NCBI RefSeq assembly: GCF_000787855.1
Contig: NZ_BBPQ01000012.1
Span: 128,567 to 173,252, forward strand
Length of the DNA stretch: 44,686 bases
Origin: Streptacidiphilus anmyonensis
Lineage (GTDB): Bacteria > Actinomycetota > Actinomycetes > Streptomycetales > Streptomycetaceae
Direction: 5' to 3'
Of this stretch, positions 6,721-24,864 are shown piece by piece (within the stretch, counting starts at the first letter, position 1; every line of letters begins with the position of its first letter). The position numbers were made by a program, and so were the translations under genes. Below the pieces are notes generated by a model. That model was given only the letters and a program-made list of their open reading frames with translations, made no database searches and was not told the origin of the DNA.

Positions 6721-9700
6721 TCAGTCCGACCCCAGCGTGTCCCGGAAGGCGCGTGCGTCCGCGGCCTCAGGGACGTCCAACTGCTCGTACAGCTCCGCCG
6801 CCCGCCCGGCGTGCTCGCGGGCCACGGCCAGTCGCCCGCGCCGCTGTTCGGCGCGGGCGAGGCCGGCATGGGCGCGGGCCCGTTCGGGGCGGCTGCGCGC
6901 GTCGGCGGCCAGCAGCAGCGCGGCGGTGTGCTCCTCCGCCGCCCGGTCCGGGGCGTCCGCGGCGAGCGCCGCCTCGCCCAGGCCGTTGCGTGCGGCGGCC
7001 TCGCCGAGCAGGTTGCCGAGCGTCCGGTACAGGTCCCTCGCCTGCGCGTGCTGCTCCAGCGCGACCGGCAGGTTGCCGTGACGGGCGTTGATCAGCCCGA
7101 GGTCGTTGAGGATGCCGGCCTCGCCGAGCCGGTTTCCCAGCGTGCGGTGCAGCGCGAGCGCGGCGTCGAAGGAGTCGTTGGCCTCGTGGCACAGGTCCGA
7201 ACGTTCCAACACCTGGGCGAGGTTCCCCAGCAGGTGCGCCTCGCCGACCGTGTTGCCGGCGGTGCGCGCCAGCGCCAGCGCCTCCTCGTAGCAGGCCCGC
7301 GCCCGCGTCAGCTCGCGGTGCCGGAACGCCACGTTGCCCAGGGTGTTGAGTGCCCGTGAGCGCTCGTACGCGCCGCCGTCCGGCAGGCCGGCGCAGAGGT
7401 CGGAGGCCGCCTCGGCGTCCTCGCGGGCCTGCTGGTAGGCGCCCAGCCGCCAGTGCGCCCAGCTCAGGTCGGTCAGCGCGGTGGTCTGCGCCGCGGGCGA
7501 GCCGAGGCGTTCGGCGCAGTCCAGCGCGAGGGCGTGCACGGTCACGCCGTCGGTGTGGTGGGCGTTGCCGTCGAGGTATGGGCGCAGCGTGGCGGCGAGT
7601 CGCACCACCTGGTCCGGTCGCCCGTTCGCGGCCGCATCGGCGGCGACCGCGACCAGGTTGGGCCGTTCGGCGTCCAGCCAGGCGCGGGCGGCGCGCGGAT
7701 CGGCGAGGGCGGAGGCGGAGGCGGACGCGGGGTCGGAGGCGTCCCCGTCCGTGGACGGCGGCGCGGGCAGCCGGTCCGCGCCGTACGGGTGGAGCAGCGC
7801 CACGGCCGCGTGGGCGGTGCGCAGGTAGTGGGCGTAGAGGCGGTCACGGGCCGCTTCGCGTGCCTCCTCGCTGTCCTGGCCCGTGGCAGTCGAGCGGGCG
7901 TGCTCCCGCAGCAGGTCGTGGAAGGTGTAACGCCCTGCCTCGTGCTGGACCAGCATGTGCGCGTCGAGGAGGTCCTCCAGCAGGTCCTCCGCGTCCGGCA
8001 GCGGCAGTCGGGCGAGCGCGGCGGCGGCCGACGCGTCGAAGTCCCGGCCCGGCGCGGAGCCCAGCAGCCGGAAGACGCGCTGCTGCTCGGAGGGCAACTG
8101 CTCGTAGGAGACGGTGAACGCGGCCGCCACGCCGCGGTCTGCGGTGGCCAGTTCGGCGAGACGGCGGCGCTCGTCGCGCAGCCGGTCCGCGAGGTAGGCC
8201 ACGGTCCAGCGCGGCCGGTGCAGCAGCCGCGCGGCGGCGATCCGGACGGCGAGCGGCAGGAACCCGCACAGTTGCAGCACGTCCAGCGCGGCCAGCGGTT
8301 CGGCGTCGGCCCGCTCGCCGACCACCGAGGTGAACAGCCCGATCGCGTCGGCGGCCGGGAACAGGTCCACCGAGAGCGCGGCGGCCCCGTCCAGATCCAC
8401 CAGCCGTCGCCGACTGGTCACCAGCACGAGGCTCCCGGCCGAGCCAGGCAGCAGCGGTCGCACCTGCTCGGCCGAGGCGGCGTTGTCGAGCACCGCCACC
8501 ACCCGCCGCTCCGCCAGCTCCGCCCGCCACAGCGCTCCGCGCTCCTGCGCCCCGGCGGGTATCCGCTCGGCGGGCAACCCGATCTGACGCAGCAGCAGGT
8601 CCAGCGCGTCCTCCGTCGGCAGCGGCTGCCGCCCGGCGGTGTCGGACTGAAGGTCCACGAAGAGCTGCCCGTCGGGATACCTCCCGGCGAGCGCGTGCGC
8701 GGCGTGCACGGCCAGCGTCGTCTTCCCGATCCCGGCCATCCCGTCGATCGCCACGACCCCGCCCGCGGCGTCCACCAGGCGCGCCAACTCCCCTTCCCGT
8801 CCGGTGAAGTCGGGCAGGTCGTAGGGCAGGTAGTCCGACCGCAGGGCCCGCCCGCGGCCTTCTGCCGCGGCCCCGCCGTGCGGTGCCCCGCCGGGACCCG
8901 GGCTCTGCGCGCCGGGTGCTGCCGCCCTCGGGTTGGCGGGCGGGCCGCTCCGGGTTGCTCCGGACGGCAGGGCGTGGGCCGGGCTTCCCGTTCCGCCGTC
9001 GACGGTCCCCGCCCCGGCGCCGCCGGGTGCTGTCGTGCCGGGCCACGGACTCTGTGGGCCGGGCGCTGTCGGCCCAGCGCCTGGGGAGCCGCCTGGGGTT
9101 GCTCCGGGCGCTGGGGCGTGCGCCGGGCTTCCCGCTCCGCCGTCGACGGTCCCCGCCCCGGCGCCGCCGGGTGCTGTCGTGCCGGGCCAGGGATTCTGCG
9201 TGCCGGGAGCTTCCCGGCCAGTGCCTGGGGAGCCGTGTGGGGACGTGGTGGGCGCTTCGGTGGGAGTCTCGCCGGACCGGGCGGCTGGGCCGTCGGCGGC
9301 CGAGCGGGCGACGCGCGGGCCGGGGACACCGGGGGAGCCGTCGTCCCCGGCCGGTCGTGCGGGCGGCAGGTGCAAGGAGGGGTCGTCGCGCAGGACCGCC
9401 GCTTCGAGGGCGGTGAACGCGCGGCCCGGGTCGAGGCCCTGGGTCTCGGCGAGGGCCGCGCGGTAGGCGCGGGCGGTCGTGAGGGCGTCGGCCTGGCGGC
9501 CGGCGCGGTGGAGGGCGAGGACGAGGTGGGCGGTCAGGCGCTCGCGCAGCGGGTACGCGGCGGCCTGGGCGCTGAGGTCGTCGAGCACCTCCTCGTGGCG
9601 GCCGAGGCCCAACTCCGCCTCGCAGAGCCGCTCGAACGCGCTCAGGCGCTTCTCCTCCAAGCGGGCGCGGTGGTCCGCCGCGTACTCCGCGCGCACCCCG

Positions 9701-10143
9701 CCGAGTGCCTCGCCCCGCCAGAGCGCGAGGCCCGCGCGCAACTCGGCCGCGGCCGCGTCCGGCCGCCCGTCCGCGGCGACGCGCTGCGCCTCGGCGACGT
9801 GGGCGGAGAAGACCGTCTGGTCCAGCCGTCGCCGCTCGGTCTCACGCGCGAGCGCGACATAGCCCTCGGGGCGCGTCTCCAGCAGTTCGGCCGCGCCGCC
9901 GCCGCGCAGGACCCGGCGGATCGCGGTGACGGCCGCGTGGATCTGGGCGCGGGCGGTCTCCGGCGCGTCGACGCCCCAGACCGCGTCGATCAGCCGCTCG
10001 GCGCTCACCACGCGACCGGCGTTGACCAGCAGATATCCCAGCACTGCCCGGTGTCGCGGGGCGAGCCCCGGCAGCGGCCGTCCGGTGTCGTCGAGGACCT
10101 CCACAGGCCCCAGCACCGTCAGTGAGACCTGTGCGGCGCTCAC
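6721..10143 (-). CDS. AfsR/SARP-family regulator with NB-ARC and TPR domains (SARP1)
   Basis: A 1140-aa protein. Residues 1-95 are an OmpR-like DNA-binding domain (SLTVLGPVEV..., AVLGYLLVNAGRVVSAERLI) and about 100-250 the bacterial transcriptional activation domain. A Pro/Gly/Ala-rich linker (about 255-430) contains a tandem repeat. An NB-ARC ATPase follows, with Walker A GMAGIGKTTLA near 470, kinase-2 VVAVLDNAA near 550, LVTSRRRL and a GFLPLAVRIAAARL motif. TPR-like helices fill about 800-1140. Such regulators switch specialised-metabolism or stress genes on ATP binding. The GTG at 10143 is chosen because GGGGGA lies six bases upstream; the frame continues upstream through the divergent promoter but looks non-coding. 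Its likely target is the divergent AhpD/CMD operon and perhaps itself. Confidence 0.85.
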   Translation of the reverse strand: MSAAQVSLTVLGPVEVLDDTGRPLPGLAPRHRAVLGYLLVNAGRVVSAERLIDAVWGVDAPETARAQIHAAVTAIRRVLRGGGAAELLETRPEGYVALARETERRRLDQTVFSAHVAEAQRVAADGRPDAAAAELRAGLALWRGEALGGVRAEYAADHRARLEEKRLSAFERLCEAELGLGRHEEVLDDLSAQAAAYPLRERLTAHLVLALHRAGRQADALTTARAYRAALAETQGLDPGRAFTALEAAVLRDDPSLHLPPARPAGDDGSPGVPGPRVARSAADGPAARSGETPTEAPTTSPHGSPGTGREAPGTQNPWPGTTAPGGAGAGTVDGGAGSPAHAPAPGATPGGSPGAGPTAPGPQSPWPGTTAPGGAGAGTVDGGTGSPAHALPSGATRSGPPANPRAAAPGAQSPGPGGAPHGGAAAEGRGRALRSDYLPYDLPDFTGREGELARLVDAAGGVVAIDGMAGIGKTTLAVHAAHALAGRYPDGQLFVDLQSDTAGRQPLPTEDALDLLLRQIGLPAERIPAGAQERGALWRAELAERRVVAVLDNAASAEQVRPLLPGSAGSLVLVTSRRRLVDLDGAAALSVDLFPAADAIGLFTSVVGERADAEPLAALDVLQLCGFLPLAVRIAAARLLHRPRWTVAYLADRLRDERRRLAELATADRGVAAAFTVSYEQLPSEQQRVFRLLGSAPGRDFDASAAAALARLPLPDAEDLLEDLLDAHMLVQHEAGRYTFHDLLREHARSTATGQDSEEAREAARDRLYAHYLRTAHAAVALLHPYGADRLPAPPSTDGDASDPASASASALADPRAARAWLDAERPNLVAVAADAAANGRPDQVVRLAATLRPYLDGNAHHTDGVTVHALALDCAERLGSPAAQTTALTDLSWAHWRLGAYQQAREDAEAASDLCAGLPDGGAYERSRALNTLGNVAFRHRELTRARACYEEALALARTAGNTVGEAHLLGNLAQVLERSDLCHEANDSFDAALALHRTLGNRLGEAGILNDLGLINARHGNLPVALEQHAQARDLYRTLGNLLGEAAARNGLGEAALAADAPDRAAEEHTAALLLAADARSRPERARAHAGLARAEQRRGRLAVAREHAGRAAELYEQLDVPEAADARAFRDTLGSD
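8895..9212. repeat. 144-bp imperfect tandem repeat inside SARP1
   Basis: Two long copies with a 144-bp period (for example GGGCTTCCCG at 8981 and again at 9125), each encoding about 48 residues with the shared core PWPGTTAPGGAGAGTVDGG, plus a degraded third PGAQSPGPGG. The unit is a multiple of three, so copy-number change lengthens the disordered linker without breaking the frame. Confidence 0.75.
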
Positions 10144-10173
10144 CCGTCGTCCCCCTCGCCCCCGCCTCGGGAA

Positions 10174-10214
10174 GTCCATCGGGCGTCCATCGCGGACGCA
10201 TCGCGAATCTATCA
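10174..10214. promoter_or_regulatory. four 11-bp-phased repeats between SARP1 and the CMD operon
   Basis: On the plus strand TCCATCG (10175), TCCATCG (10186), CGCATCG (10197) and TCTATCA (10208) are spaced exactly 11 bp apart. Read on the minus strand they are TGATAGA, CGATGCG, CGATGGA and CGATGGA. Heptamers repeating every 11 bp are the known layout of SARP binding sites. On the plus strand a weak GAATCT -10 (10226-10231) ends six bases before the ATG of the CMD gene, consistent with a leaderless transcript. Which gene the array serves is not settled. Confidence 0.6.
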
Positions 10215-10237
10215 ACCGGGCCCGCGAATCTCTTCCC

Positions 10238-10780
10238 ATGACAGGAATCCCCCTGATCGAGCCGGAGACGGCCACCGGACCAGCGGCACGGTGGCTGGCC
10301 GAGGCCCAGCAGACCTTCGGGATCACCCCGAACCTGGTCAAGGCGCTGGCCAACAGCCCAGCGGCGCTGCGCGGCTTCCTGGCGATGACGCTGGCGCTCC
10401 GCGAGGAGGGCCGGCTCTCCGCCTCGACCCGCACCCGGATCGGGCTGCTGGTGGCGCAGGAGCACCGCAGCGCCTACGGCCTGTCCGTGCACAGCTTCCT
10501 GGCGGGCACGGTCGGCGGCCTCTCCGAACGGGAGGTGGCCGAGGCCCGCCGGGGGCGGGCCGAGGACGCGAAGGCGTCGGCGGTCCTCGCCTACGCGGCC
10601 GCGCTGCTGCGCGGTCGGGGGGCGGTCACGGCCCTGGAGAGCGCCGCCGCCGCGCGGGATCTGACAGCCGAGGAGCAGACCGAGGTGATCGCCCAGGTGA
10701 TCGTCCACAGTCTCGCCGACTGGCTGGCCCTCGCCGCCGGCATCCCCGTCGACTGGCCCCTGGTCAGCCCCGACGACTGA
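10238..10780 (+). CDS. AhpD/CMD-fold protein without the CxxC motif
   Basis: A 180-aa helical protein resembling the peroxidase-related carboxymuconolactone decarboxylase family (FGITPNLVKALANSPAALRGFL..., RTRIGLLVAQEH...). The helix that carries CxxCxxxH in AhpD reads RSAYGLSVHSFL, so both cysteines are gone while the histidine remains. It is therefore unlikely to be a thiol peroxidase; a binding or lactone/decarboxylase-like role is possible. The ATG at 10238 has no ribosome binding site and sits right after a -10-like hexamer, suggesting leaderless translation. It is the first gene of a three-gene plus-strand set with 10853 and 11376, facing SARP1. Confidence 0.75.
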   Translation: MTGIPLIEPETATGPAARWLAEAQQTFGITPNLVKALANSPAALRGFLAMTLALREEGRLSASTRTRIGLLVAQEHRSAYGLSVHSFLAGTVGGLSEREVAEARRGRAEDAKASAVLAYAAALLRGRGAVTALESAAAARDLTAEEQTEVIAQVIVHSLADWLALAAGIPVDWPLVSPDD

Positions 10781-13288: not shown

Positions 13289-13342
13289 TTTAACGTGGAG
13301 GAGTCAGCTGCCGGCCACGTCTGCCTCTGGGGGGTCACCACC

Positions 13343-14332
13343 ATGCGCTCGTCCGTCCCATCCCTTCGGGTCACCCGCCGCCTGTCCCGAGCGGTGCTCG
13401 GTGGTGTGGTGATCGCCTTGATGGCGACGGTCAGCGCCTGCGCGACCACGGCTCCGCCCGGATCCCGCACCGGATCGGGCGCGGCCGACGCCTCGGGCGT
13501 GGCGGCGGGCGGCACGGTGGTCCAGGTGGTCGCGGCGGAGAACTTCTGGGGGTCGATAGCCTCCCAGCTGGGCGGCGACCACGTGCACGTGACCAGCGTC
13601 ATCACCAACCCGGACACCGACCCGCACTCCTACGAGCCGACCGCCGCCGACGCCCGCACGGTCACCGGAGCGCAGTACGTGATCGTCAACGGCATCGGCT
13701 ACGACGCCTGGGCGGACAAGCTGCTGGCCGCCAACCCCGGCGCCGGCCGCACCGAGCTCAAGGTCGGCGACCTGGTCGGCATCCGGCCGGGCGGCAACCC
13801 GCACCGCTGGTACTCGCCCACCGACGTGCACCGGGTCATCGACCGGATCACGGCCGACTACAAGAGGATCGACCCGGCCGACGCCGCCTACTTCGACCGG
13901 CAGAAGCAGACCTTCGAGACGCGGACCCTGGCCCGGTACGACCAGCTGATCGCCGACATCAAGGCGAAGTACGCCGGCACCCCGATCGGCGCCTCGGAGT
14001 CCATCGTCACCCCGCTCGCGGAGGGCCTGGGCCTGAGGATGCTGACGCCGGAGAGCTTCCTCGACGCGATGAGCGAGGGCACCGACCCGACCGCCGCCGA
14101 CAAGGCGACCATCGACCAGCAGATCAAGTCCAAGCAGATCAAGATCTACGTCTACAACAGCCAGAACTCCACCCCCGACGTCGTCGCCCAGGTGAAGCTG
14201 GCGAAATCCGAGGGCATCCCCGTCACCACCGTGACCGAGACCCTCGCCCCCGCGGGCGACACCTTCGAGCAGTGGCAGACCACCGAGCTCCAGGGCATCG
14301 AGCAGGCCCTCCACCAGGCCACCGGGAAGTGA
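13343..14332 (+). CDS. metal-binding lipoprotein of a Zn/Mn ABC importer (ZnuA-like)
   Basis: A 329-aa cluster-9 solute-binding protein. The signal peptide ends in the lipobox VSAC (Cys near residue 33), so it is a lipid-anchored surface protein. Metal ligands appear as DPHSYEPTAADA and GNPHRWYSPTDV. Two later positions that are usually His and Asp fall in ESIVTPLAEG and YNSQNSTPDV, a variant seen in many actinobacterial members. There is no His-rich loop; instead the ATPase carries one at its C-terminus. The ATG at 13343 is chosen to give a normal signal peptide; a GTG at 13295 would add 16 residues. First gene of a four-gene importer operon. Confidence 0.88.
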   Translation: MRSSVPSLRVTRRLSRAVLGGVVIALMATVSACATTAPPGSRTGSGAADASGVAAGGTVVQVVAAENFWGSIASQLGGDHVHVTSVITNPDTDPHSYEPTAADARTVTGAQYVIVNGIGYDAWADKLLAANPGAGRTELKVGDLVGIRPGGNPHRWYSPTDVHRVIDRITADYKRIDPADAAYFDRQKQTFETRTLARYDQLIADIKAKYAGTPIGASESIVTPLAEGLGLRMLTPESFLDAMSEGTDPTAADKATIDQQIKSKQIKIYVYNSQNSTPDVVAQVKLAKSEGIPVTTVTETLAPAGDTFEQWQTTELQGIEQALHQATGK

Positions 14333-14340
14333 GGACGCAC

Positions 14341-15351
14341 GTGAACCCTGTCGTCGCGGCGGAGCCGCAGCACAACGCGGACCAGCACAACACGAAGCAG
14401 CAGAACCCCGTCCCCACCGCCGCGTCCGCGGCCGGTGGTCCCTCCGAGGCGGGCGGCCAGGCCGCGCCGGTGCTGTGCCTGTGCGGCGCGGCGGTGCGGG
14501 TCGGCGGCCGCACGCTCTGGTCCGGCGTCGACCTCGAGGTCCAGGCCGGGGAGTTCGTCGCCGTGCTCGGCCCTAACGGCGTCGGCAAGTCGACACTGGT
14601 CAAGGTGCTGCTCGGGATCATGCCCGCGGCCGAGGGCGAGATACGGGTGCTCGGCCGCCGCCCCGGCGAGGCCGGCAGCCGCGTCGGCTACCTGCCCCAG
14701 CGCCGCAGCTTCGACCCGGACCTGCGCATCCGCGGCGTCGACGTGGTCCGGATGGGCCTGGACGGCGACCGCTGGGGCGTACCGCTGCCCTGGTCCCGCA
14801 ACCGGCGCGAGCAGCAGCGGCGCGTCGACGAGGTGATCGAGCTGGTCGGCGCCTCCGGGTACGCCCACCGGCCGATCGGGCAGTGCTCGGGAGGCGAGCA
14901 GCAGCGGCTGCTGATCGCCCAGGCGCTCGTCCGCCGTCCCGAGGTGCTGCTGCTGGACGAGCCCCTGGACAGCCTGGACCTGCCCAACCAGAGCGCGGTC
15001 GCCGCGCTGATCGGCCGCATCTGCCACCAGGAGAACGTCGCGGTCGTCATGGTCGCCCACGACGTCAACCCGATCCTGCACCACCTCGACCGCGTCGTGT
15101 ACATCGCCGAGGGCGGCGCGGTGTGCGGCCCGCCGAGCGAGGTCATCAACTCCGAGACGCTGACCCGGCTCTACCGCACCCCGGTGGAGGTGCTGTCCAC
15201 GCAGGACGGCCGCCTCGTCGTGGTCGGCCAGCCCGAGGCGCCCGCCGTCCACGCGGACCGCCACGACGACGGTCACGGTCACGGTCACGGTCACGGCGAT
15301 CGCCGCGGTCAGAGCGACCGTCGCGGTCACGGCGACCGTCGCGCGGGGTGA
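14341..15351 (+). CDS. ABC importer ATPase (ZnuC-like) with His-rich tail
   Basis: A 336-aa ATPase: Walker A LGPNGVGKST, signature CSGGEQQRL, Walker B VLLLDEPLD and H-loop VMVAHD. It energises import through the two permeases that follow. The GTG at 14341, 8 bp past the lipoprotein stop with GTGAGG upstream, is chosen. The N-terminal 45 residues (QHNADQHNTKQQN) and C-terminal 30 residues (HDDGHGHGHGHGD) are extensions beyond the usual ATPase of about 260 residues. The His/Asp-rich tail would bind Zn2+ in the cytosol and could sense or buffer incoming metal. The permease starts 6 bp after the stop. Confidence 0.9.
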   Translation: MNPVVAAEPQHNADQHNTKQQNPVPTAASAAGGPSEAGGQAAPVLCLCGAAVRVGGRTLWSGVDLEVQAGEFVAVLGPNGVGKSTLVKVLLGIMPAAEGEIRVLGRRPGEAGSRVGYLPQRRSFDPDLRIRGVDVVRMGLDGDRWGVPLPWSRNRREQQRRVDEVIELVGASGYAHRPIGQCSGGEQQRLLIAQALVRRPEVLLLDEPLDSLDLPNQSAVAALIGRICHQENVAVVMVAHDVNPILHHLDRVVYIAEGGAVCGPPSEVINSETLTRLYRTPVEVLSTQDGRLVVVGQPEAPAVHADRHDDGHGHGHGHGDRRGQSDRRGHGDRRAG

Positions 15352-15357
15352 GCTGAG

Positions 15358-16266
15358 ATGGAGTCACCGGTCTTCTCCTGGAACCCGCTCTACGACTTCC
15401 AGTTGATGTGGTCCTACCCGTTCATGGTCAACGCCTTCCGCGCGGGCGCGATCGTCGCCGTCGTCGCGGGCGCCGTCGGCTGGTTCATGGTGCTGCGGCG
15501 GCAGACCTTCGCCGGGCACACGCTCTCCGTCGTCGCCTTCCCGGGCGCGGCGCTGGCGACGCTGGCCGGATTCAGCCTGAGCCTCGGCTACTTCGGCTTC
15601 TGCGTCGCCGCCGCGCTCGTGCTGGCGCTGATGCGGCGCGGCCGCGAGCCCGGCGGCTCGGAGGAGTCGGCCGCCACCGGGGTCGTGCAGGCGTTCCTGC
15701 TGGCCTGCGGCTACCTGTTCATGGCCCTCTACAAGGGCCTGCTGGAAGGACCGCAGGCGCTGCTCTTCGGCAGCTTCCTCGGCATCACCACCGGACAGGT
15801 CGCCACACTCGCCGTCGCCGGGCTCGCGGTCCTGCTGGCGCTCGCGGTCCTCGGCCGCCCGCTGCTGTTCGCCTCCGTCGACCCGCAGGTCGCCGCCGCG
15901 CGCGGGGTGCCCGTGCGCGGTCTCTCGGTCGCCTTCCTGGTGCTGCTGGGCGTCGCCACGGCCGAGGCCGCGCAGATCACCGGTGCGCTGCTGGTCTTCG
16001 CGCTGATGGTGCTGCCGGCGGCGACCGCCCAGGTGCTGACGGCCCGTCCCGGGCTGAGCCTGCTGCTGACCGTGGTCCTGGGCTTCGGCGTGACCTGGGC
16101 GGGCCTGGTGGCCGCCTTCTACTGGCCCTACCCGCTCGGATTCTTCGTGACCTCGTTCGCCTTCGGGCTCTTCCTGCTCGCCCACGGCGCGCGCTTCGCG
16201 GCGTGTGCGCTGGAGCGCCGCCGCGACGCCTCCGGCACGGCGGCCCTGGCCGGGGGTGCGGCATGA
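15358..16266 (+). CDS. metal ABC importer permease 1 (ZnuB family)
   Basis: A 302-aa ABC-3 family permease with about eight membrane helices, starting with a long amphipathic N-terminus (YDFQLMWSYPFMVNAFRAG) and carrying the family motifs RRQTFAGHTLSVVAFPGAAL and DPQVAAARGVPVRGLS. It forms the membrane channel with the second permease, whose start overlaps its stop by 4 bp (ATGA), so the two are translationally coupled. Confidence 0.9.
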   Translation: MESPVFSWNPLYDFQLMWSYPFMVNAFRAGAIVAVVAGAVGWFMVLRRQTFAGHTLSVVAFPGAALATLAGFSLSLGYFGFCVAAALVLALMRRGREPGGSEESAATGVVQAFLLACGYLFMALYKGLLEGPQALLFGSFLGITTGQVATLAVAGLAVLLALAVLGRPLLFASVDPQVAAARGVPVRGLSVAFLVLLGVATAEAAQITGALLVFALMVLPAATAQVLTARPGLSLLLTVVLGFGVTWAGLVAAFYWPYPLGFFVTSFAFGLFLLAHGARFAACALERRRDASGTAALAGGAA

Positions 16267-17355: not shown

Positions 17356-20300
17356 ATGCGGTTGGGCGTGTTGGGTCCGCTGGAGGTCGAGACGGGGGCC
17401 GGGGAGCGCGCCGTCGTCGCCGCGCCGAAGCAGCGGACCGTGCTGGCCTGTCTCGCGCTGCGCGCCAATCACGCGGTGTCGACCGACGCGTTGATGGAGT
17501 CCGTCTGGCCCGACCGGCAACCGGCGAACGCGAAGCCGGCGATCCTGAACTACGTGGCCCGGCTGCGCCGGAACCTGCTGGACGTCGCCGAGCGGGTGCA
17601 GACGACCGCCGGCGGGTACCGGCTGGAGGTCCGTGAGGACCGCGAGCTCGACCACATGCACGCCGCAGCGCTCGCGACCACCGCCCGGAACGCCGTCTGC
17701 GGCGGGGACTGGAGCGGCGGAGAGCGGCAAGCCGACGCGGCGCTCGCGCTGTGGCGGGGCGAGCCCTTGGAGGACGTGCCCTGTGACCGGCTGCGGTCCG
17801 ACTGGGCGCCGACCTTCGACGCGCTGCGGATGCGGCTGGAGGAGACCCGTCTCGACGCCCTGCTCGCCGCGGGCCACTTCGACCGGGCGCTGCCCCGGCT
17901 GATGCACCTGACCGCGGCGCACCCCCTGCTCGAGCCGCTGCACGAGCGCGCCGTGGTCGCGCTCTACGGGACCGGCCGTCGCGCGGAGGCTTTGGGCTGC
18001 TACGGCCGGGCCCGCTCGGCCCTGCGGGACGGCATCGGCGCGGACCCTGCACCCTGCCTGCAGGACCTGCACGCGCTGGTCCTGCGCGACGCTCCGGTGC
18101 AGGAGCTGGTGGCGGTGTGGCGGAGGGCCCGCGCGCTGGCGCATTCGGGCGGGGCGCACCCAGGCGGGCCGCACGCGGGTGGGCGCTCGCCCGCCGACGT
18201 CGGCGCCGGCGCCGGGGCGGCGTCCGGGGCTGAGGCGGTGTCCGGGACCGGAGCGGTGGCCAGGCCTAGGGCGGAGACCGGATCGCAGTCAGCGGGGCAC
18301 CCTGCCTCGGCCGGGTTTCCGCTCTCGCAACTTCCCTGCCCGCCACGGTCCGTCGTCGGAAGGGAACGGGAACTTCGGGAGCTCACCCGACTGTTGGCCG
18401 AGCCGCCGAGCGCGGCCGAGTCGCAGGACAGCGGCACCCCGACGGAGGCAGGCGGCGGCGTCCGGGTGGCCGCCGTCGTCGGGCCCGCCGGCGTGGGCAA
18501 GACGACGCTCGCCCTGGCCTGGGCACACCGTGTCGCCCACCGCTTTCCCGGCGGGCAGATGTACTTGGACCTGAACGGCTTCGCCGCCGAGGGCAGACCC
18601 GTCGCCACGGACGCCGCCGTCGGCGCGCTGCTCGACTTCCTGGGTGTTCCGGCGGCTCGCCTGCCCGCTACGCCCGAGGGGCGCGCGGCCCTGTACCGGG
18701 GGCTGGTCGCGGACAAGCGGCTGCTGCTGGTCTTCGACAACGTGCGGGACGCCGCCCAGGTGCGGCCGCTGCTGCCGTCCGGCGACGAGTGCCGCGCCCT
18801 GGTGACCAGCCGCCGCTCGCTCGGCAGCCTGGTGGTGCTCGACGGGGCCGAGACGCTGCCGTTGGGGCCGCTGAGCGCTTCGGACTCGCGCGAACTGCTG
18901 GTCCGCAGACTCGGAGCGCAGCGCGTCTCCGGTCAGGAGGCGGCCGTCGCGGTGGTCGCGGAGCGGTGCGCGCACCTGCCGCTGGCCCTGTCCGTCGCCG
19001 CGGCCCGCGCCACGTCGGCGGACAGGGCCATGCCGCTCTCCGCCCTGGCCCGGCAGTTGGAGCGCGGCGCACTCGACGCCCTCAGCGCCGGGGACGACGC
19101 GAGCAGTGTGCGCACCGTGCTGTCCTGGTCGTACGAGGGGCTGACGACTGCGGCCGCGCGTCTCTTCCGGTTCCTCGGCCTGCATCCGGGTGCGGAGTTC
19201 ACCGTGCCGGGCGCGGCGGCCCTGACCGACCTGCCGCCGACCCGCGTGGCTGCCCTGGTCGAGGAGCTGGCGGCGCTGAGCCTGCTGACCGAAACCGTCC
19301 CGGGCCGGTACACCCTGGACAGCCTGCTGCGGCAGTACGCCGCAGAGTTGATCGCCGACGAGACCGCCGATGCCCAGCGGACCGATGCTGCCCATCAGGC
19401 CGATGCCCATCGCACCGGCGGTGGGCTGATCGATGACGGGCTGACCGGTGGTGGGTCGACCGTCGACGGACCGGCCCACGCGGTGACCGGCGCGGCGGAG
19501 CAGCACGCGGCGCGGCACCGCCTCTACGACTACCACCTGCGCTCCGCGCTGGCCGCCGACCGCCGTTGCGCGCCCGTGCTCTCGGCCGTTCAGGCCGACG
19601 GGGTGCCGCTGCCGACGGGGCTCGCGTCACGGGACTTCGACGGCCGCGACGCGGCCCTGGCCTGGCTGGCCGACGAGCAGCGGGTGCTCGCGACCCTGAT
19701 CGCCCAGGCGTCCTCCTGCGGCCTGGACTCCTACGCGTGGCGGTTGGCCCTCGCCCAGTCCGCGGGGCTGGCCCTGCGTGGCGACCACACCGAGGAACTG
19801 CGGCTGGCCCGCCTGGCGTTGGGCCCGGCCAAGCGTCTTCGGGACGCGACCGGACAGGGCTGCTGCTACCTGGTGATCGGACGCGCGCTGGCGCAGCTCG
19901 GCGAGGTGCAGACCGCCCGCTTCCAACTACGGCGCGCTCTGGGCCTGTTCCGGGCCACCGAGGCCGTGGAGCTGCTCGGTGAGGCCCATCGGGCGCTGGG
20001 CGACTGCGCCCACCGTCAGGGCCGACATCGGGAGTTCGCGGCCCACGCCCGCTCCTGCCTGGCGGCGGCCCGGCAGTCGGGCGACCCGGTCCGCGTCTGC
20101 CACGCGCTCGACCGCCTCGGCTGGGCGCTCCTCCACTGCGGTGAGCCCCGGGAGGCCCACGTCCACAGCCTGGAAGCCGTCGGCCTGGCGCGCGAGCTGG
20201 GCCTGGCCCGGTCGGTGCGCGAGCGGCTCGACGCGGGCCGCCGCCTGGCCCACGCCGAACTGCTGGCCGCCGAGGGCGAGCCGGAGCACGCGCGGGCGAT

Positions 20301-20508
20301 CTGGCGAGAGGTCGGCCTGACCGCCCGGTCCGACAGCCCTGAGCAGGCCGCGTACGCCGAGCGTCGGCTCGCCGCGCACCGCCCGCACGCCGACCCGGCC
20401 GCGGGCGTGGCCCGGGTCGCGGCGTCGGGTCCGGGCTTGGTGGCAGGTGCGGGCGCAGCGGCAGGCGCGGGTGCGGCGACGCCCAGGGCGCCCGAGGTGA
20501 CACCCTGA
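17356..20508 (+). CDS. AfsR/SARP-family regulator with NB-ARC and TPR domains (SARP2)
   Basis: A 1050-aa protein: OmpR-like DNA-binding domain (1-90; MRLGVLGPLEV, LRANHAVSTDALMESVWPD), activation domain (about 95-255), a flexible Ala/Gly linker, and an NB-ARC ATPase with Walker A VVGPAGVGKTTLAL (about 374-387), LLLVFDNV (about 456-463), LVTSRRSL and CAHLPLALSVAAAR. A C-terminal helical TPR-like region follows, interrupted by a TGGG/DDG-rich insert near 680-710. It ends 103 bp upstream of ubiD. The ubiD and ubiX promoters share 11-bp-phased heptamers in the SARP layout, so this protein is the natural activator of both operons. It shares its domain plan, not close sequence, with SARP1. Start: ATG 17356 with GGGGGAGGGGG upstream. 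Confidence 0.88.
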   Translation: MRLGVLGPLEVETGAGERAVVAAPKQRTVLACLALRANHAVSTDALMESVWPDRQPANAKPAILNYVARLRRNLLDVAERVQTTAGGYRLEVREDRELDHMHAAALATTARNAVCGGDWSGGERQADAALALWRGEPLEDVPCDRLRSDWAPTFDALRMRLEETRLDALLAAGHFDRALPRLMHLTAAHPLLEPLHERAVVALYGTGRRAEALGCYGRARSALRDGIGADPAPCLQDLHALVLRDAPVQELVAVWRRARALAHSGGAHPGGPHAGGRSPADVGAGAGAASGAEAVSGTGAVARPRAETGSQSAGHPASAGFPLSQLPCPPRSVVGRERELRELTRLLAEPPSAAESQDSGTPTEAGGGVRVAAVVGPAGVGKTTLALAWAHRVAHRFPGGQMYLDLNGFAAEGRPVATDAAVGALLDFLGVPAARLPATPEGRAALYRGLVADKRLLLVFDNVRDAAQVRPLLPSGDECRALVTSRRSLGSLVVLDGAETLPLGPLSASDSRELLVRRLGAQRVSGQEAAVAVVAERCAHLPLALSVAAARATSADRAMPLSALARQLERGALDALSAGDDASSVRTVLSWSYEGLTTAAARLFRFLGLHPGAEFTVPGAAALTDLPPTRVAALVEELAALSLLTETVPGRYTLDSLLRQYAAELIADETADAQRTDAAHQADAHRTGGGLIDDGLTGGGSTVDGPAHAVTGAAEQHAARHRLYDYHLRSALAADRRCAPVLSAVQADGVPLPTGLASRDFDGRDAALAWLADEQRVLATLIAQASSCGLDSYAWRLALAQSAGLALRGDHTEELRLARLALGPAKRLRDATGQGCCYLVIGRALAQLGEVQTARFQLRRALGLFRATEAVELLGEAHRALGDCAHRQGRHREFAAHARSCLAAARQSGDPVRVCHALDRLGWALLHCGEPREAHVHSLEAVGLARELGLARSVRERLDAGRRLAHAELLAAEGEPEHARAIWREVGLTARSDSPEQAAYAERRLAAHRPHADPAAGVARVAASGPGLVAGAGAAAGAGAATPRAPEVTP

Positions 20509-20541: not shown

Positions 20542-20585
20542 CGTTGGCCGGACGATAGGTCCGCGATATCGCCCCTCCCTAGCGT
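20542..20585 (+). promoter_or_regulatory. SARP-type operator and promoter of the ubiD operon
   Basis: Heptamers CGTTGGC (20542), CGATAGG (20553) and CGATATC (20564) are spaced exactly 11 bp apart. Nine bases after the last one comes TAGCGT (20580-20585), a TAnnnT -10. This is the canonical SARP activator layout (heptamers replacing the -35). The same layout, heptamers and -10 occur in front of ubiX on the other strand. Confidence 0.75.
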
Positions 20586-20611
20586 CGGGCGCACCGACGA
20601 GGAGGACGTTC

Positions 20612-22117
20612 GTGAACCATCTCAAGAGCCTGCGCGCCTTCATCGACGCCCTGGACGCGATCGGCGAGATCCAGCCGATCGACAAGGAAGTGGACTGGCG
20701 GCTCGAAATCGGCGCCGTGGCGCGTCGCACCTACGAACTGCGGGCCCCGGCACCGCTGTTCAACACCATCACGGGCATCGAGAAGGGCTTCCGGGTGCTG
20801 TCCGCGCCCGGCGGCCTGTCCGCGCAGCCCGGCCTGACCTACAGCCGCATCGCGCTCGCCCTCGGCCTGCCCGCCGACGCCAGGGGCGCCGACATCGTCA
20901 CCGCGCTGGCCGACGCCCGACGGCGCGAGCCGATCCCGCCGGAGGTGGTGGAGCGGTCCGCGGCGCCCTGCAAGCAGAACGTCATGACGGGCGACGAGAT
21001 CGACCTGCTGAAGTTCCCCACCCCGCTGATCCACGACGGCGACGGCGGCCGCTACATCCAGTCCTTCGGGATGAACATCGCCCGCACGCCCGACGGGTCG
21101 TGGACCAACTGGTCGATCAACCGCATGATGCTCGTCGACCGCAACCGCCTCGCCTGCCTGATCCCGCCGCCGCAGCACCTGGGGATGATCCGGGCCCAGT
21201 GGACCGAGCGCGGCGAGGACATGCCGATCGCGGTCGCCCTCGGCGTCGAGCCCGGCCTGCCCTACGTCGGCGGCATGCCGCTGCCGGAGGGGGACGACGA
21301 GTCCCACTTCCTGGGCGCCTACTTCGGCGAGGGTGTGGAGCTCGTGCGGGCCGAGACCGTGGACCTGCTCGTCCCGGCGACCGCCGAGATCGTCATCGAG
21401 GGCTACGTCTCCCGCACCGACCTGGTCGAGGAGGGTCCGATGGGGGAGTACCCGGGGTACCTGGACCGCGGCAGCCACTCGCCCAAGCCCGTCCTGCACG
21501 TCACCGCCGTCACCTACCGCGACGACGCCATCCTGCCCGTGGCCGTCGCCGGCGCGCCCGTCGAGGAGGACCACACCGGCTGGGGCCTGCCGCACGCCGC
21601 CGAGATGACGCACGTGCTCCGCGAGGCCGGCCTGCCGGTCTCGGCCTGCTGGGGCGTACTGGAGTCGGCGGCGCACTGGTGGGTGGTGGCGCTCAAGCCG
21701 TCCTGGCACGAGGAGTCGGGCCTGGACTCCAAGGCGATGACACAGCGCGTCGGCGAGGTCGTCTTCGGGGCGGGCAAGCTCGCCTTCGGCGTGCCCAAGC
21801 TGGTGCTCGTCGAGCACGACTTCGACATCGCCGATCCCGGACAGATCATCTGGGCCTTCGCCAGCCGCTCGCACCCCGAGCACGGCGAGGCGCACTTCCC
21901 GGGCCAGCCGCAGAACATCATCCCGGTCTACCTCGACGAGCACGAGCGGCTGAGCTACCACGCCACCAAGGTCGTCTACAACTGCCTGCTGGCCGACCGC
22001 TTCCCGGTCGACGAGCGGCCGGTGGCCTCGGACTTCGCCCACAACTGGTCCTCCGAGCTGCAGCAGCACGTGCTGGACAACTGGGAGGCCTACGGCTTCA
22101 CGAGCGTCAAGGAGTGA
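20612..22117 (+). CDS. UbiD-family prenyl-FMN-dependent decarboxylase
   Basis: A 501-aa protein close to the Fdc1/UbiD class: TPDGSWTNWSINRMMLVD, IPPPQHLGMI, LVPATAEIVIEGY, LVEEGPMGEYPGY and SYRDNAILPV-like TYRDDAILPV. The catalytic Arg and two Glu of UbiD enzymes are present (R171 in SINR, E274 and E279 in EGPMGE). Such enzymes (de)carboxylate alpha,beta-unsaturated or aromatic acids and need prenylated FMN, supplied by UbiX, which is encoded at 24206-24769. The substrate is unknown. The GTG at 20612 follows GGAGGAC. It is the first gene of a two-gene operon with the atypical SDR and lies directly behind SARP2 and its putative operator, so it is not likely to be the menaquinone-pathway UbiD. 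Confidence 0.9.
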   Translation: MNHLKSLRAFIDALDAIGEIQPIDKEVDWRLEIGAVARRTYELRAPAPLFNTITGIEKGFRVLSAPGGLSAQPGLTYSRIALALGLPADARGADIVTALADARRREPIPPEVVERSAAPCKQNVMTGDEIDLLKFPTPLIHDGDGGRYIQSFGMNIARTPDGSWTNWSINRMMLVDRNRLACLIPPPQHLGMIRAQWTERGEDMPIAVALGVEPGLPYVGGMPLPEGDDESHFLGAYFGEGVELVRAETVDLLVPATAEIVIEGYVSRTDLVEEGPMGEYPGYLDRGSHSPKPVLHVTAVTYRDDAILPVAVAGAPVEEDHTGWGLPHAAEMTHVLREAGLPVSACWGVLESAAHWWVVALKPSWHEESGLDSKAMTQRVGEVVFGAGKLAFGVPKLVLVEHDFDIADPGQIIWAFASRSHPEHGEAHFPGQPQNIIPVYLDEHERLSYHATKVVYNCLLADRFPVDERPVASDFAHNWSSELQQHVLDNWEAYGFTSVKE

Positions 22118-22145
22118 GGCGGCCTCGCCCTGTTCCCGTGCCCTG

Positions 22146-22184
22146 ATCCGAAGACGAGCCAATCCGAAGACGAGCCAATCGAAG
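22146..22184 (+). repeat. 16-bp tandem repeat upstream of the SDR-like gene
   Basis: Two perfect copies of ATCCGAAGACGAGCCA (22146-22161, 22162-22177) followed by a partial third that becomes the GAAGGAAGAG ribosome binding region of the gene at 22199. Confidence 0.85.
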
Positions 22185-22198
22185 GAAGAGAGCCACTG

Positions 22199-22870
22199 AT
22201 GATTGACGTGAGTGAAAAGGGCAGCGCCCTGATCGTCGGCGTCGGCCCCGGACTCGGCGTCGCGGTGGCCCGCGCGTTCGCCGAGGCGGGTCACCCGGTC
22301 GCGCTGATCGGCCGCACCGGCGGCACGCTGAAGGAACTGGCGGGGCAACTCCAGGCCGAGGGTCATGTCGCTCGCGACTACCAGGCCGACGCCGCCGACG
22401 CCGAGCAGCTCGGGTCCGTGCTGGACCTGGCCGTCGCCGAGCTGGGCGCTCCCGAGGCGCTCGTCTACAACGCCGCCTACGGACGCCCCGACACCCCCAC
22501 CGCCGTGAGCCCGGAGGGCTGGGCGGACAGCCTGGCGGTCAACGTCATCGGCGCGACCGTCGCCGCAGGGCACGTGATCCCCGCCTTCCGCGGCGGCCGT
22601 GGCACGGTCCTGTTCACCGGCGGCGGCTTCGCGCTCGCGCCGTCCCCCGACTACACCACCCTGTCGGTGGGCAAGGCCGCCCTGCGCGCCTACGCGCACG
22701 CCCTGCACGAGGAGCAGCGCGAAGCGGGCGTCCACGTCACGACCGTCACCATCCGCGGCTTCATCAGCCCGGGTGACGAGCGCTTCGACTCGGCGGCGAT
22801 CGCCAAGGTCTACCTGGAGCTGCACCGAAGGCCCCGCGACCAGTGGCAGGCGGAGTACGTCTACCCCTGA
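22199..22870 (+). CDS. atypical SDR-fold oxidoreductase lacking the catalytic Tyr
   Basis: A 223-aa Rossmann protein: nucleotide-binding GVGPGLGVAVARAFAEAGH near the N-terminus and YNAAYG in place of the NNAG motif. At the active site the usual YxxxK reads LSVGK (within DYTTLSVGKAALRAY), so Lys is kept but Tyr is replaced by Leu; a Tyr lies three residues earlier. It may be a non-classical reductase, an isomerase or a binding protein. ATG at 22199 with GAAGGAAGAG upstream. It follows ubiD by 81 bp on the same strand and is probably co-transcribed, so it may act on the decarboxylation substrate or product. Confidence 0.75.
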   Translation: MIDVSEKGSALIVGVGPGLGVAVARAFAEAGHPVALIGRTGGTLKELAGQLQAEGHVARDYQADAADAEQLGSVLDLAVAELGAPEALVYNAAYGRPDTPTAVSPEGWADSLAVNVIGATVAAGHVIPAFRGGRGTVLFTGGGFALAPSPDYTTLSVGKAALRAYAHALHEEQREAGVHVTTVTIRGFISPGDERFDSAAIAKVYLELHRRPRDQWQAEYVYP

Positions 22871-22913
22871 TACCGCTGACACCGCCGCGGTGGGGGCGAT
22901 CGTCGCCCGGAAA

Positions 22914-22947
22914 CGGTGGCCGGAGCACTGAACTGCTCCGGCCACCG
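22914..22947. terminator. bidirectional terminator between the two convergent operons
   Basis: CGGTGGCCGGAGCA (22914-22927) and TGCTCCGGCCACCG (22934-22947) form a perfect 14-bp stem with a 6-nt loop, 43 bp past the plus-strand SDR stop and 48 bp past the minus-strand SDR stop. Confidence 0.8.
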
Positions 22948-22995
22948 CGACGTTCCCCCTCCTCCCTCGGCCTCCCTCGGCCGGATCGCCGGCCG

Positions 22996-23757
22996 CTAGC
23001 TCTGCACCGTCCCGCCGTTGACCCGGATGGTCTGCGCGGTGATCCAGCGGGCGGCGTCGCCCGCCAGGAACGTCACCACGGCGGCGATCTCCTCGGGCCG
23101 TCCCAGCCTCCCGAAGGCACTCAGGGCCTCCAGACCGGCGAGGAACTCCGCGCTCTTGCCGTTGCGGTAGGACTCGGTCTCGGTCGCGCCGGGGCTGACC
23201 GTGTTCACCGTGATGCCTCGTCGCCCGAAGTCCTTCGACAGGATGTGCGTGAACTGCTCCACCGCGCCCTTGGTCGCGTCGTAGACCGCGTAGCCGGGGA
23301 GCATCAGCGCGGTGGTCGAGCTGGAGATCGTGATCACCCGCCCGCCGTCCCGCATCCGTTCCAAGGCCAGCTGCAGCCCGTGGAAGACGCCCTTGACGTT
23401 GACCGCGAAGCTGCGGTCGAACTCCTCCTCGGTGACCTCCGCGAACGGCTTGGTCACCGCCACCGCGGCGTTGTTGACCAGGATGTCCCAGCCGCCGAAC
23501 GACCCCGTCAGCCGGTCCACCATCGCCGCGTACTCGGCACGGACCGTGACGTCGGCCGCGACCGCCACCGCCGTTCCGCCCGCCTTCTCGATGCCGCGCA
23601 CCACCGCGTCGGCAGGCTCGGGCGTGTGCGGGTGGTTGACGACGACGCGGGCGCCCGCGGCGGCCAGATCGCGCGCGACGGCCGCTCCGATACCGGTCGC
23701 GGCCCCCGTCACCAGCGCGGTCCGGCCGGTGAGGCTCCGCTGCTCGACGCTGCTCAC
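22996..23757 (-). CDS. short-chain dehydrogenase/reductase (classical SDR)
   Basis: A 253-aa NAD(P)-dependent oxidoreductase with all classical SDR motifs: TGAATGIGAAVA (cofactor loop), DILVNNAAV, Ser of ISSSTTAL, YDATK catalytic Tyr/Lys and a C-terminal RWITAQTIRVNGG. Similar to FabG-like carbonyl reductases; substrate unknown. The GTG at 23757 overlaps the TGA of the DUF3224 gene by 4 bp (GTGA), so translation is coupled. Third gene of the ubiX operon. Confidence 0.88.
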   Translation of the reverse strand: MSSVEQRSLTGRTALVTGAATGIGAAVARDLAAAGARVVVNHPHTPEPADAVVRGIEKAGGTAVAVAADVTVRAEYAAMVDRLTGSFGGWDILVNNAAVAVTKPFAEVTEEEFDRSFAVNVKGVFHGLQLALERMRDGGRVITISSSTTALMLPGYAVYDATKGAVEQFTHILSKDFGRRGITVNTVSPGATETESYRNGKSAEFLAGLEALSAFGRLGRPEEIAAVVTFLAGDAARWITAQTIRVNGGTVQS

Positions 23758-24209
23758 GTCTCGAACCAGTAGTCCAGCCACACCTCGGCGCCCTCGCCGA
23801 GGTTCGCCCGGAAGCCGCCGGTGCCACGCAGCCCCGTCAGCCCGCCGGTGCCGGAGCCCGGCACCACGAACCACTCGCCGTTGACGACAGCGCTCTCGAC
23901 CGTGCCCTGGTCCTGCAGCAGGAACGTGCCGGTGCGGCCCGCCAGCGAACCGCTGACCCGCTCGATCCCGACGAAGCTCGCCGACCCGTCCGGCGCGGAG
24001 GACTGCAGGAACTCCACGACGCCGTCCGCCGTGATGTCGCCCGAGAAGCTCTCCTCGACATGAATGCGGGTCAGCACCGGCCCGTCGGTCGGCTTGTCGT
24101 AGACGGTCGGTTCGTACGTGGCCACCGTGATCACGGCGTTGGCCCGTGTGGTGGTGGGGTTGCGCATATCTCGTCCGATCCTTCGCTCTCGATGGTCCGC
24201 AAGGGTCAT
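23754..24209 (-). CDS. DUF3224-family protein
   Basis: A 151-aa, probably beta-barrel protein: EPTVYDKPTDGPVLTRIHVE, SFSGDITADGVVEFLQS, ASFVGIERVSGSLAGRTGTF and WFVVPGSGTGGLTGLRGTG fit the DUF3224 pattern (allene-oxide-cyclase-like barrel in family descriptions). No catalytic residues can be assigned; a small-molecule binding or cyclase-like role is possible. The ATG at 24209 overlaps the ubiX stop (ATGA), and the 3' end overlaps the SDR start, so all three are coupled. A later ATG (24167, MRNPTTT) is a weaker alternative start. Confidence 0.75.
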   Translation of the reverse strand: MTLADHRERRIGRDMRNPTTTRANAVITVATYEPTVYDKPTDGPVLTRIHVEESFSGDITADGVVEFLQSSAPDGSASFVGIERVSGSLAGRTGTFLLQDQGTVESAVVNGEWFVVPGSGTGGLTGLRGTGGFRANLGEGAEVWLDYWFET

Positions 24210-24769
24210 TCACCCCAGCGCGGTAGATCCGGCACGTCGATCCCGAGCAGATCCAAGGCCCGTCCGGCCGTGTGCTGGACGATCTCGTCGACGCTCGTCG
24301 GACGCAGGTAGAACGCCGGCACCGGGGGCATGACGATCCCGCCGGACTCGGTGACGGCTGCCATCGCCCGGATGTGGCCGAGCGTCAGCGGTGTCTCCCG
24401 CACCATCAGGACCAACCGACGGCGCTCCTTCAGCGTCACGTCCGCCGCCCGGGTGAGCAGGTTGTCCCCGTTCGACTGGGCGATCGCCGACAGCGTCCGG
24501 ATCGAGCACGGCGCGACGATCATCCCCGCCGTCCGGAACGACCCCGAGGCGATCGCCGCGCCCACGTCCGCCGGCCGATGCACGACGTCCGCCATGGCGG
24601 CCAGATCCCCGGCCGACAGGTCGGTCTCGTATGCGCGGGTCTGCTGTCCGGCGGGCGTGACGACCAGGTGGGTCTCCACTCCGACCTTCCGCGCCAGCTC
24701 CAGCACCCGCAGCCCGTACACGATCCCGGTCGCGCCGCTGATGCCGACGACCAGTCGCCGTTTGTCCAC
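24206..24769 (-). CDS. ubiX: UbiX flavin prenyltransferase
   Basis: A 187-aa flavoprotein: VVGISGATGIVYGLRVLELA (FMN loop), IVAPCSIRTLSAIAQSNGDN, RRLVLMVRETPLTLGHIRAM and MPPVPAFYLRP, all hallmark UbiX motifs. It attaches a dimethylallyl group to FMN to make the prenyl-FMN used by UbiD enzymes, here surely the one at 20612. The GTG at 24769 is chosen because GGAGG lies eight bases upstream and the protein then starts near MDKRRLVVGISG; an ATG at 24805 has no good site. First gene of the minus-strand operon. Confidence 0.92.
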   Translation of the reverse strand: MDKRRLVVGISGATGIVYGLRVLELARKVGVETHLVVTPAGQQTRAYETDLSAGDLAAMADVVHRPADVGAAIASGSFRTAGMIVAPCSIRTLSAIAQSNGDNLLTRAADVTLKERRRLVLMVRETPLTLGHIRAMAAVTESGGIVMPPVPAFYLRPTSVDEIVQHTAGRALDLLGIDVPDLPRWGE

Positions 24770-24820
24770 CGCCAGTCCCTCCGTCGACCGTTGCCTCCCT
24801 TGCACCTTGCGGCGGGCTGG

Positions 24821-24864
24821 ACGCTAGGAGGCGATGCCAACGCGGCTCTATCGCCGCACTATCG
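24821..24864 (-). promoter_or_regulatory. SARP-type operator and promoter of the ubiX operon
   Basis: On the minus strand CGATAGT (24864-24858), CGATAGA (24853-24847) and CGTTGGC (24842-24836) are spaced 11 bp apart. Nine bases later comes TAGCGT (24826-24821). Heptamers, phasing, nine-base gap and -10 are the same as in the ubiD promoter, though the order of heptamer types is reversed. Confidence 0.75.

Follow-up and report, generated by a model that had tools for sequence, protein, structure and literature searches.

Do two convergent operons, one for a UbiD-family decarboxylase and one for a UbiX flavin prenyltransferase, answer to a single neighbouring regulator? The question is raised by a 44,686-nucleotide stretch of Streptacidiphilus anmyonensis (contig NZ_BBPQ01000012.1, positions 128,567 to 173,252; the window, whose positions are used throughout), in which the gene of a SARP regulator, SARP2, probably of the large class, is followed by a ubiD-SDR1 operon on the plus strand and, facing it, a ubiX-DUF3224-SDR2 operon on the minus strand. 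SARPs are mostly tied to their targets by sharing one antibiotic cluster. Here, the operator array found before both operons goes with the SARP2 gene in related bacteria even when the target genes are dispersed, which suggests one regulator for the whole set, and SARP2 is, to judge from sequence comparison, very probably the activator of a small regulon, dedicated to it and serving a single decarboxylation pathway dependent on prenylated flavin mononucleotide (prFMN).

The two promoters have a common design, in which three heptamers at a period of 11 are followed by nine bases and TAGCGT; the elements below were read directly from the sequence.

20542..20548, plus strand: ubiD operator heptamer 1, CGTTGGC
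20553..20559, plus strand: ubiD operator heptamer 2, CGATAGG
20564..20570, plus strand: ubiD operator heptamer 3, CGATATC
20580..20585, plus strand: predicted -10 element of the ubiD promoter, TAGCGT (TANCNT is invariant in 8 aligned module promoters)
24858..24864, minus strand: ubiX operator heptamer 1, CGATAGT
24847..24853, minus strand: ubiX operator heptamer 2, CGATAGA
24836..24842, minus strand: ubiX operator heptamer 3, CGTTGGC
24821..24826, minus strand: predicted -10 element of the ubiX promoter, TAGCGT

A sequence-only reading of the window had described these heptamers, their 11-bp phase, the nine-base gap and the TAGCGT before ubiD and ubiX, all of which is borne out, and had placed the end of a SARP gene shortly before the first site, as is the case: the SARP2 gene ends at 20508, with 33 bases between there and the first ubiD heptamer. 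The CGTTGGC unit stands first in the ubiD array and last in the ubiX array, and the spacers of the arrays differ. SARP-type operators consist of direct repeats spaced by 11 or 22 bp, with the final repeat about 8 bp from the -10 element, and both arrays have this form, with nine bases here, not eight. A period of 11 with a gap of nine was the best of 110 combinations, all nine module promoters from other genomes scoring above 8 bits, although several of those nine had been found using the same grammar.

Within the S. anmyonensis draft genome (9,386,419 bases, or 9.39 Mb, in 153 contigs) the full pattern is confined to these two places. Three CGNTNK units at period 11 occur 11 times, and three CGWTRK units occur only as the ubiD and ubiX arrays. 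Two CGWTRK units give 19 matches at 17 places, compared with eight for the backwards pattern, and TANNNT follows nine bases after such a pair only at ubiD and ubiX. A matrix of the ubiD heptamers only, run over 3.56 million positions (2,031 with TANNNT), ranked the ubiX promoter directly behind the training site; the matrix of the ubiX heptamers only put ubiD in third place, after the training site and L240, a locus fetched on account of such an array. Eight module promoters, both S. anmyonensis sites among them, were used to train a profile from sequence only, which gave expectation values (E) of 3.4e-7 and 6.8e-5 at the two sites and 1.31 at the next best place, with 150 of 2,496 first-look candidates scored. 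Pattern scans of the genome for period-11 repeats, of the kind that the sequence-only reading had suggested, returned only the two known promoters as fits to the full pattern, and its view that the match is unlikely by chance agrees with these scans, the cross-training ranks and the profile. A chance likeness of two promoters, or a recent promoter copy, is scarcely credible even though GC-rich sequence with simple CG words makes up both intergenic stretches: the rarity in this genome, the cross-training ranks and retention across lineages argue against chance, and the arrays are no recent copy of one another because their heptamer order and spacers differ.

The distribution of the array across genomes was then compared with that of SARP2. 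UbiD relatives at E 1e-50 are present in 18 of 61 genomes, S. anmyonensis included, and 19 of the 20 UbiD places outside this genome were fetched, a second copy in genome G004 being left out. In three of the fetched regions, from genomes G046, G050 and G048, a SARP2 orthologue adjoins ubiD or ubiX (57-59% identical over 248 amino acids, the DNA-binding part), and in all three genomes the array precedes ubiD or ubiX and is separated from TANCGT by nine bases. The array is thus present at four of four SARP2-linked ubi loci, S. anmyonensis included, and at none of the 16 fetched UbiD regions without SARP2, which gave no profile match up to E 5 (Fisher p 2e-4, though the genomes are related). In 13 of these 16 regions UbiD is at least 59% identical, two of them being partial matches, and three (L034, L040, L044) have 29-41% matches to the NB-ARC stretch of SARP2 only. 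Among 391 genomes of the order, with seven candidates scored per genome, the DNA-binding part was matched at E 1e-60 only in S. anmyonensis, G046, G050 and G048. When all candidates were scored in the 14 genomes of the family to which the last three belong, a clear gap separated the orthologues (57-59%) from other SARPs (at most 46%), and in the genus of S. anmyonensis SARP2 is present in one of 14 genomes, that of S. anmyonensis only.

Scores at the sites point the same way. A matrix of the six S. anmyonensis heptamers with TANNNT at +9, scanned over 3.06 million positions of loci (overlapping loci counted), gave 14.7-20.2 bits for the ubiX promoters of G050 and G048 and the M24 peptidase promoter of G046; of the other sites outside S. 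anmyonensis the best, at L101, had 9.6 bits, and the G046 ubiD promoter came just below it with 8.6. In 16 chosen genomes, all 12 profile matches with E of 0.013 or less precede module genes, and the next best has E 0.15. Eight of the 12 are training sites and four are not (three distinct sequences), namely those before DUF3224 and ubiX in genome G043 and one sequence common to G050 and G051. Together, the operator and the -10 element are specific enough for the regulon to be named from sequence. The ubiX promoters of G050 and G048 (L041:2187 and L045:11205, both minus strand) have a possible inverted half-site, seen by eye, about 24 bases farther upstream than the heptamer pair.

Genome G046, of the same genus (g19) as G043, has the module dispersed over three contigs: SARP2-ubiD-SDR1 on C4, ubiX on C2 and DUF3224-SDR2 on C6. 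Even with abutting contigs, these pieces would be separated by about 140 kb or more, and all of them keep the array. The ubiX gene was located by its protein, and its promoter reads AGTTATC, CGATATA, nine bases, TACCTT (14.9 bits); the C6 site, which came from the heptamer-pair search, reads CGATATC, CGATATA, nine bases, TACCTT (20.0 bits), and behind it lie DUF3224 (77% identical to that of the window) and SDR2 (85%). The 18-kb regions surrounding ubiX and DUF3224-SDR2 have no SARP2 match at E 1e-8. A fourth site precedes an M24 peptidase gene divergent from SARP2, and a gene for a FAD/BBE oxidase then follows. The sequence-only reading had SARP2 activate exactly two operons, a count that stands for the S. 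anmyonensis draft, with its next profile match at E 1.31, and fails for G046, with four such promoters. Its prediction that SARP2 acts on both operons as one module gains from the co-occurrence and from the array retained at unlinked G046 genes.

That the adjacent SARP2 reads both arrays, with binding predicted from sequence, is strongly supported, because the array co-occurs with SARP2 and persists at the unlinked module genes of G046. We further consider it probable, with less assurance than for the regulon itself, that the operator alone is the means by which this SARP subfamily holds a metabolic pathway together, every scattered G046 piece having retained it, and therefore that the operator predicts hidden pathway members. 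If this is true, such members would include the G046 M24 peptidase and perhaps also the oxidase gene that follows, which a gene-cluster search would not connect.

SARP2 matches PF00486 (35.1 bits) and PF03704 (BTAD, 99.1 bits), both above cut-off, and so has the N-terminal OmpR-type DNA-binding domain, with the BTAD after it, that defines a SARP; NB-ARC is also above cut-off (38.9 bits), and TPR_2 is weak, at 20.9 bits against a cut-off of 27. SARP2 is a predicted DNA-binding activator of transcription. AfsR chains in the PDB align to its residues 1-247, and the four SARP2 orthologues have one and the same recognition helix, LNYVARLRR. No relative was found in viral contigs scanned with the SARP alignment.

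The closest known system is AfsR at the afs box of afsS in Streptomyces coelicolor (PDB 8hvr, 8jke, 8k60), a large SARP with nucleotide-binding and TPR parts, as SARP2 probably is. In the AfsR structures two protomers occupy adjacent 11-bp repeats over the -35 element and contact both polymerase and sigma, and the afs box, like the module arrays, consists of 11-bp direct repeats over the -35 region, two in number (PMC10936776). AfsR and SARP2 are 37% identical in the SARP domain. Base-reading R92 of AfsR corresponds to SARP2 R69, counted on the alignment, whereas base-touching T88 is N65 in all four orthologues. The operators also differ, being CGATATC-like here and CGTTYATCG for AfsR, as do the targets, an enzyme module here and afsS for AfsR. 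The array is positioned where the AfsR-type model needs it. By this model, the OmpR-type domain of SARP2 would sit on two or three CGATATC-like heptamers 11 bp, or one helix turn, apart, its protomers would line up over the -35 region, and SARP2 would bring RNA polymerase to the -10 element, TANCNT, which follows the array after nine bases, the polymerase contact being modelled on the AfsR structures. The ubiD-SDR1 and ubiX-DUF3224-SDR2 operons would be switched on together, so that the decarboxylase and the maker of its cofactor would appear simultaneously. Beyond binding and activation, we infer a signal, on which the NB-ARC and putative TPR parts of SARP2 would gate activation, and a product of the pathway.

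The likeness to AfsR also raises a different reading, in which the reader of the arrays is a global SARP (AfsR) or some other SARP such as SARP1, the second large SARP of the window, with SARP2 a bystander. The published AfsR repeat, CGTT(T/C)ATCGNN (PMC10972967), resembles CGATATCG, the domains of SARP1 are the same as those of SARP2, some array-like promoters elsewhere in the order adjoin other SARPs, and the arrays of G043 persist without SARP2. However, AfsR homologues were found in all Streptomyces tested, 25 strains (PMC10972967), yet none of the 16 UbiD regions lacking SARP2 has the array, and among 12 SARP2-less genomes only G043 (E 1.5e-5) and G051 (0.011) have a profile match below E 0.16. 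SARP2 is not AfsR, scoring 355.6 bits with the AfsR equivalog model NF053617, whose cut-off is 1430. A third-position T-to-A change in the repeat is reported to abolish AfsR binding (PMC10936776), and four of the six S. anmyonensis heptamers have A at the third position, the register being uncertain by one base. We judge a reader other than SARP2 to be unlikely.

It is far less likely still that the repeats are sites for PhoP (PHO boxes) or other 11-bp-repeat sites of phosphate control. The core of the PHO box is GTTCACC, which is absent among the heptamers, and PhoP would leave the co-occurrence with SARP2 unexplained. Such a reading draws on the competition of PhoP and AfsR at overlapping repeats (PMC10972967).

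Several observations weigh against SARP2 as dedicated activator of the module. The SARP2 orthologues are few, coming from four genomes of one order that are not independent by descent, and no convincing profile match was found upstream of SARP2 itself. The G046 ubiD site is weak, a partial model match with 21.7 bits and E 0.0026. The heptamer pair is not rare alone, as two SGWTAK units at period 11 gave 21 matches in four genomes compared with 19 for the backwards pattern, 15 of the 21 lying outside the module and without TANNNT at +9. Arrays also occur without the regulator: G043 has them before ubiX and DUF3224 and has no SARP2 orthologue (best SARP 45%), and G051 (81% complete, best SARP 43%) has an array stretch in common with G050.

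The G043 arrays appear to be orphans that have yet to decay; alternatively, another SARP could read them. On contig C25 of G043 this ubiD, SDR1 and most of SARP2 are missing. What is left matches the G046 flank over 7.1 kb (90%), followed by 356 bases that resemble the end of SARP2 (76%) and 339 bases from the oxidase gene (92%); because this deletion scar retains remnants of flank, SARP2 end and oxidase gene, G043 once had the module. The genomes offer a natural control, in which genes moved yet kept the site and a regulator-less relative kept apparent orphan sites. The stretch common to G050 and G051 may reflect mixed bins. At L174 (G051) and L187 (G050), 1501-1537 on the plus strand, the array precedes what looks, from some twelve codons assessed by eye, like a ubiX start; this start is cut off beside a transposase gene, and a search of its surroundings at E 1e-6 did not find the remainder of a ubiX.

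Among other SARP systems, the operators of DnrI, ActII-ORF4, VlmI and FdmR1, and of PimR for the SARP-LAL group, also have three heptamers with a classical unit of 11 bp, and PimR binding requires at least two heptamers, which differ in sequence from those of the module (PMC5930380, PMC10972967). These regulators serve antibiotic clusters, unlike the case here, and the parts of the two papers drawn on make no mention of operators retained after cluster dispersal. The bagremycin and ferroverdin clusters resemble the window in combining a SARP activator (BagI/FevR) with a UbiD/UbiX pair, BagN-BagM/FevL-FevK (PMC6692506). However, SARP2 matched the BagI/FevR model in the SARP part only (76.6 vs 500 bits), and the UbiD of the window scored 454.4 bits with the BagN/FevL decarboxylase model (NF041219), below its cut-off of 1000. 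The SARP operator grammar was already known; the ubiD/ubiX pairing and the survival of the array after dispersal are new here. If SARP2 binds as predicted, the module would offer a compact test system for DNA choice by large SARPs and for the co-ordering of decarboxylase and cofactor maker, and the operator a way of joining unlinked genes into one pathway.

Similar arrays were also sought across the order, by a profile search of 391 genomes with 17 candidates scored in each. At E of 0.05 or less there were 29 matches, 12 at the module and 17 elsewhere, where chance predicts about 20; E falls below 1e-4 for two of the 17, and 16 of them are in genus g9 of the S. anmyonensis family. A SARP gene lies within about 8 kb of seven of the 17 sites compared with none of 17 control stretches, which came from six of the genomes (Fisher p 0.0036); two of the seven are probably one place in two species, and an eighth site, L232, with a SARP-like NB-ARC match at its edge, was not counted. 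Split after the fact, seven of nine full-length matches and none of eight partial ones have a SARP nearby, and in G114 and G225 the SARP gene ends directly before the array, as in the window. These sites are no more than a hint that a similar operator serves other large SARPs. The profile gave no match up to E 0.5 at 43 of 52 loci of other SARPs (at most 40% identical; 854 kb), and the array is therefore not a general mark of SARP genes. Some array-like promoters were noted individually. At L101:8832 (plus strand), in Plantactinospora endophytica, GGATAGA, GGATAAC, nine bases and TACTGT lie upstream of a gene at 8915-9898, itself followed by another SARP, a site with 9.6 bits in the S. anmyonensis matrix and no profile match. 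Within the S. anmyonensis family, a SARP gene ends directly before an array-like promoter at L244:8032 (plus strand) and L240:8066 (minus strand), and at L233:7999 (minus strand) a SARP gene has one just upstream of itself.

The genes of the module are arranged in the window as follows.

17356..20508, plus strand: SARP2, a SARP of 1050 amino acids, probably of the large class (Trans_reg_C, BTAD, NB-ARC and weak TPR, from Pfam), the proposed activator
20599..20606, plus strand: ribosome-binding site GAGGAGGA, preceding the ubiD GTG start at 20612 (from the sequence)
20612..22117, plus strand: UbiD-family decarboxylase, 501 amino acids, GTG start at 20612 (PF01977, PF20695, PF20696; TIGR00148 above cut-off)
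22199..22870, plus strand: SDR1, a short-chain dehydrogenase of 223 amino acids (PF00106)
22914..22947, no strand assigned: hairpin between the convergent operons, minimum free energy -36.9 kcal/mol, z -5.97
22996..23757, minus strand: SDR2, a short-chain dehydrogenase of 253 amino acids (PF13561)
23754..24209, minus strand: DUF3224 protein, 151 amino acids (PF11528)
24206..24769, minus strand: UbiX flavin prenyltransferase, 187 amino acids, GTG start at 24769 (PF02441; TIGR00421 and NF004685 above cut-off)

The ends of the two convergent operons are separated by the strong hairpin, which is likely a two-way terminator. With the starts used here, the DUF3224 gene overlaps each neighbour, ubiX and SDR2, by four bases; DUF3224 had no match in a literature search. 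All three Pfam domains of UbiD (N, Rift and C) are matched, and the protein is near solved UbiD-like decarboxylases, with 6da6, PA0254 (4ip2) and Fdc1 as its PDB relatives. By its domains and the nearby UbiX gene it belongs with the UbiD decarboxylases, and prFMN-dependent decarboxylation is its putative reaction.

SARP1 (6721-10434, minus strand; Trans_reg_C, BTAD, NB-ARC, TPR) is 33.5% identical to SARP2 in the SARP domain, and the profile found no convincing array in its vicinity. The SARP1 gene lies upstream of a same-strand Nramp transporter gene, and between the two SARP genes, at 13295-16266 on the plus strand, is a metal uptake set of a ZnuA-like binding protein, an ABC ATPase and an ABC-3 permease.

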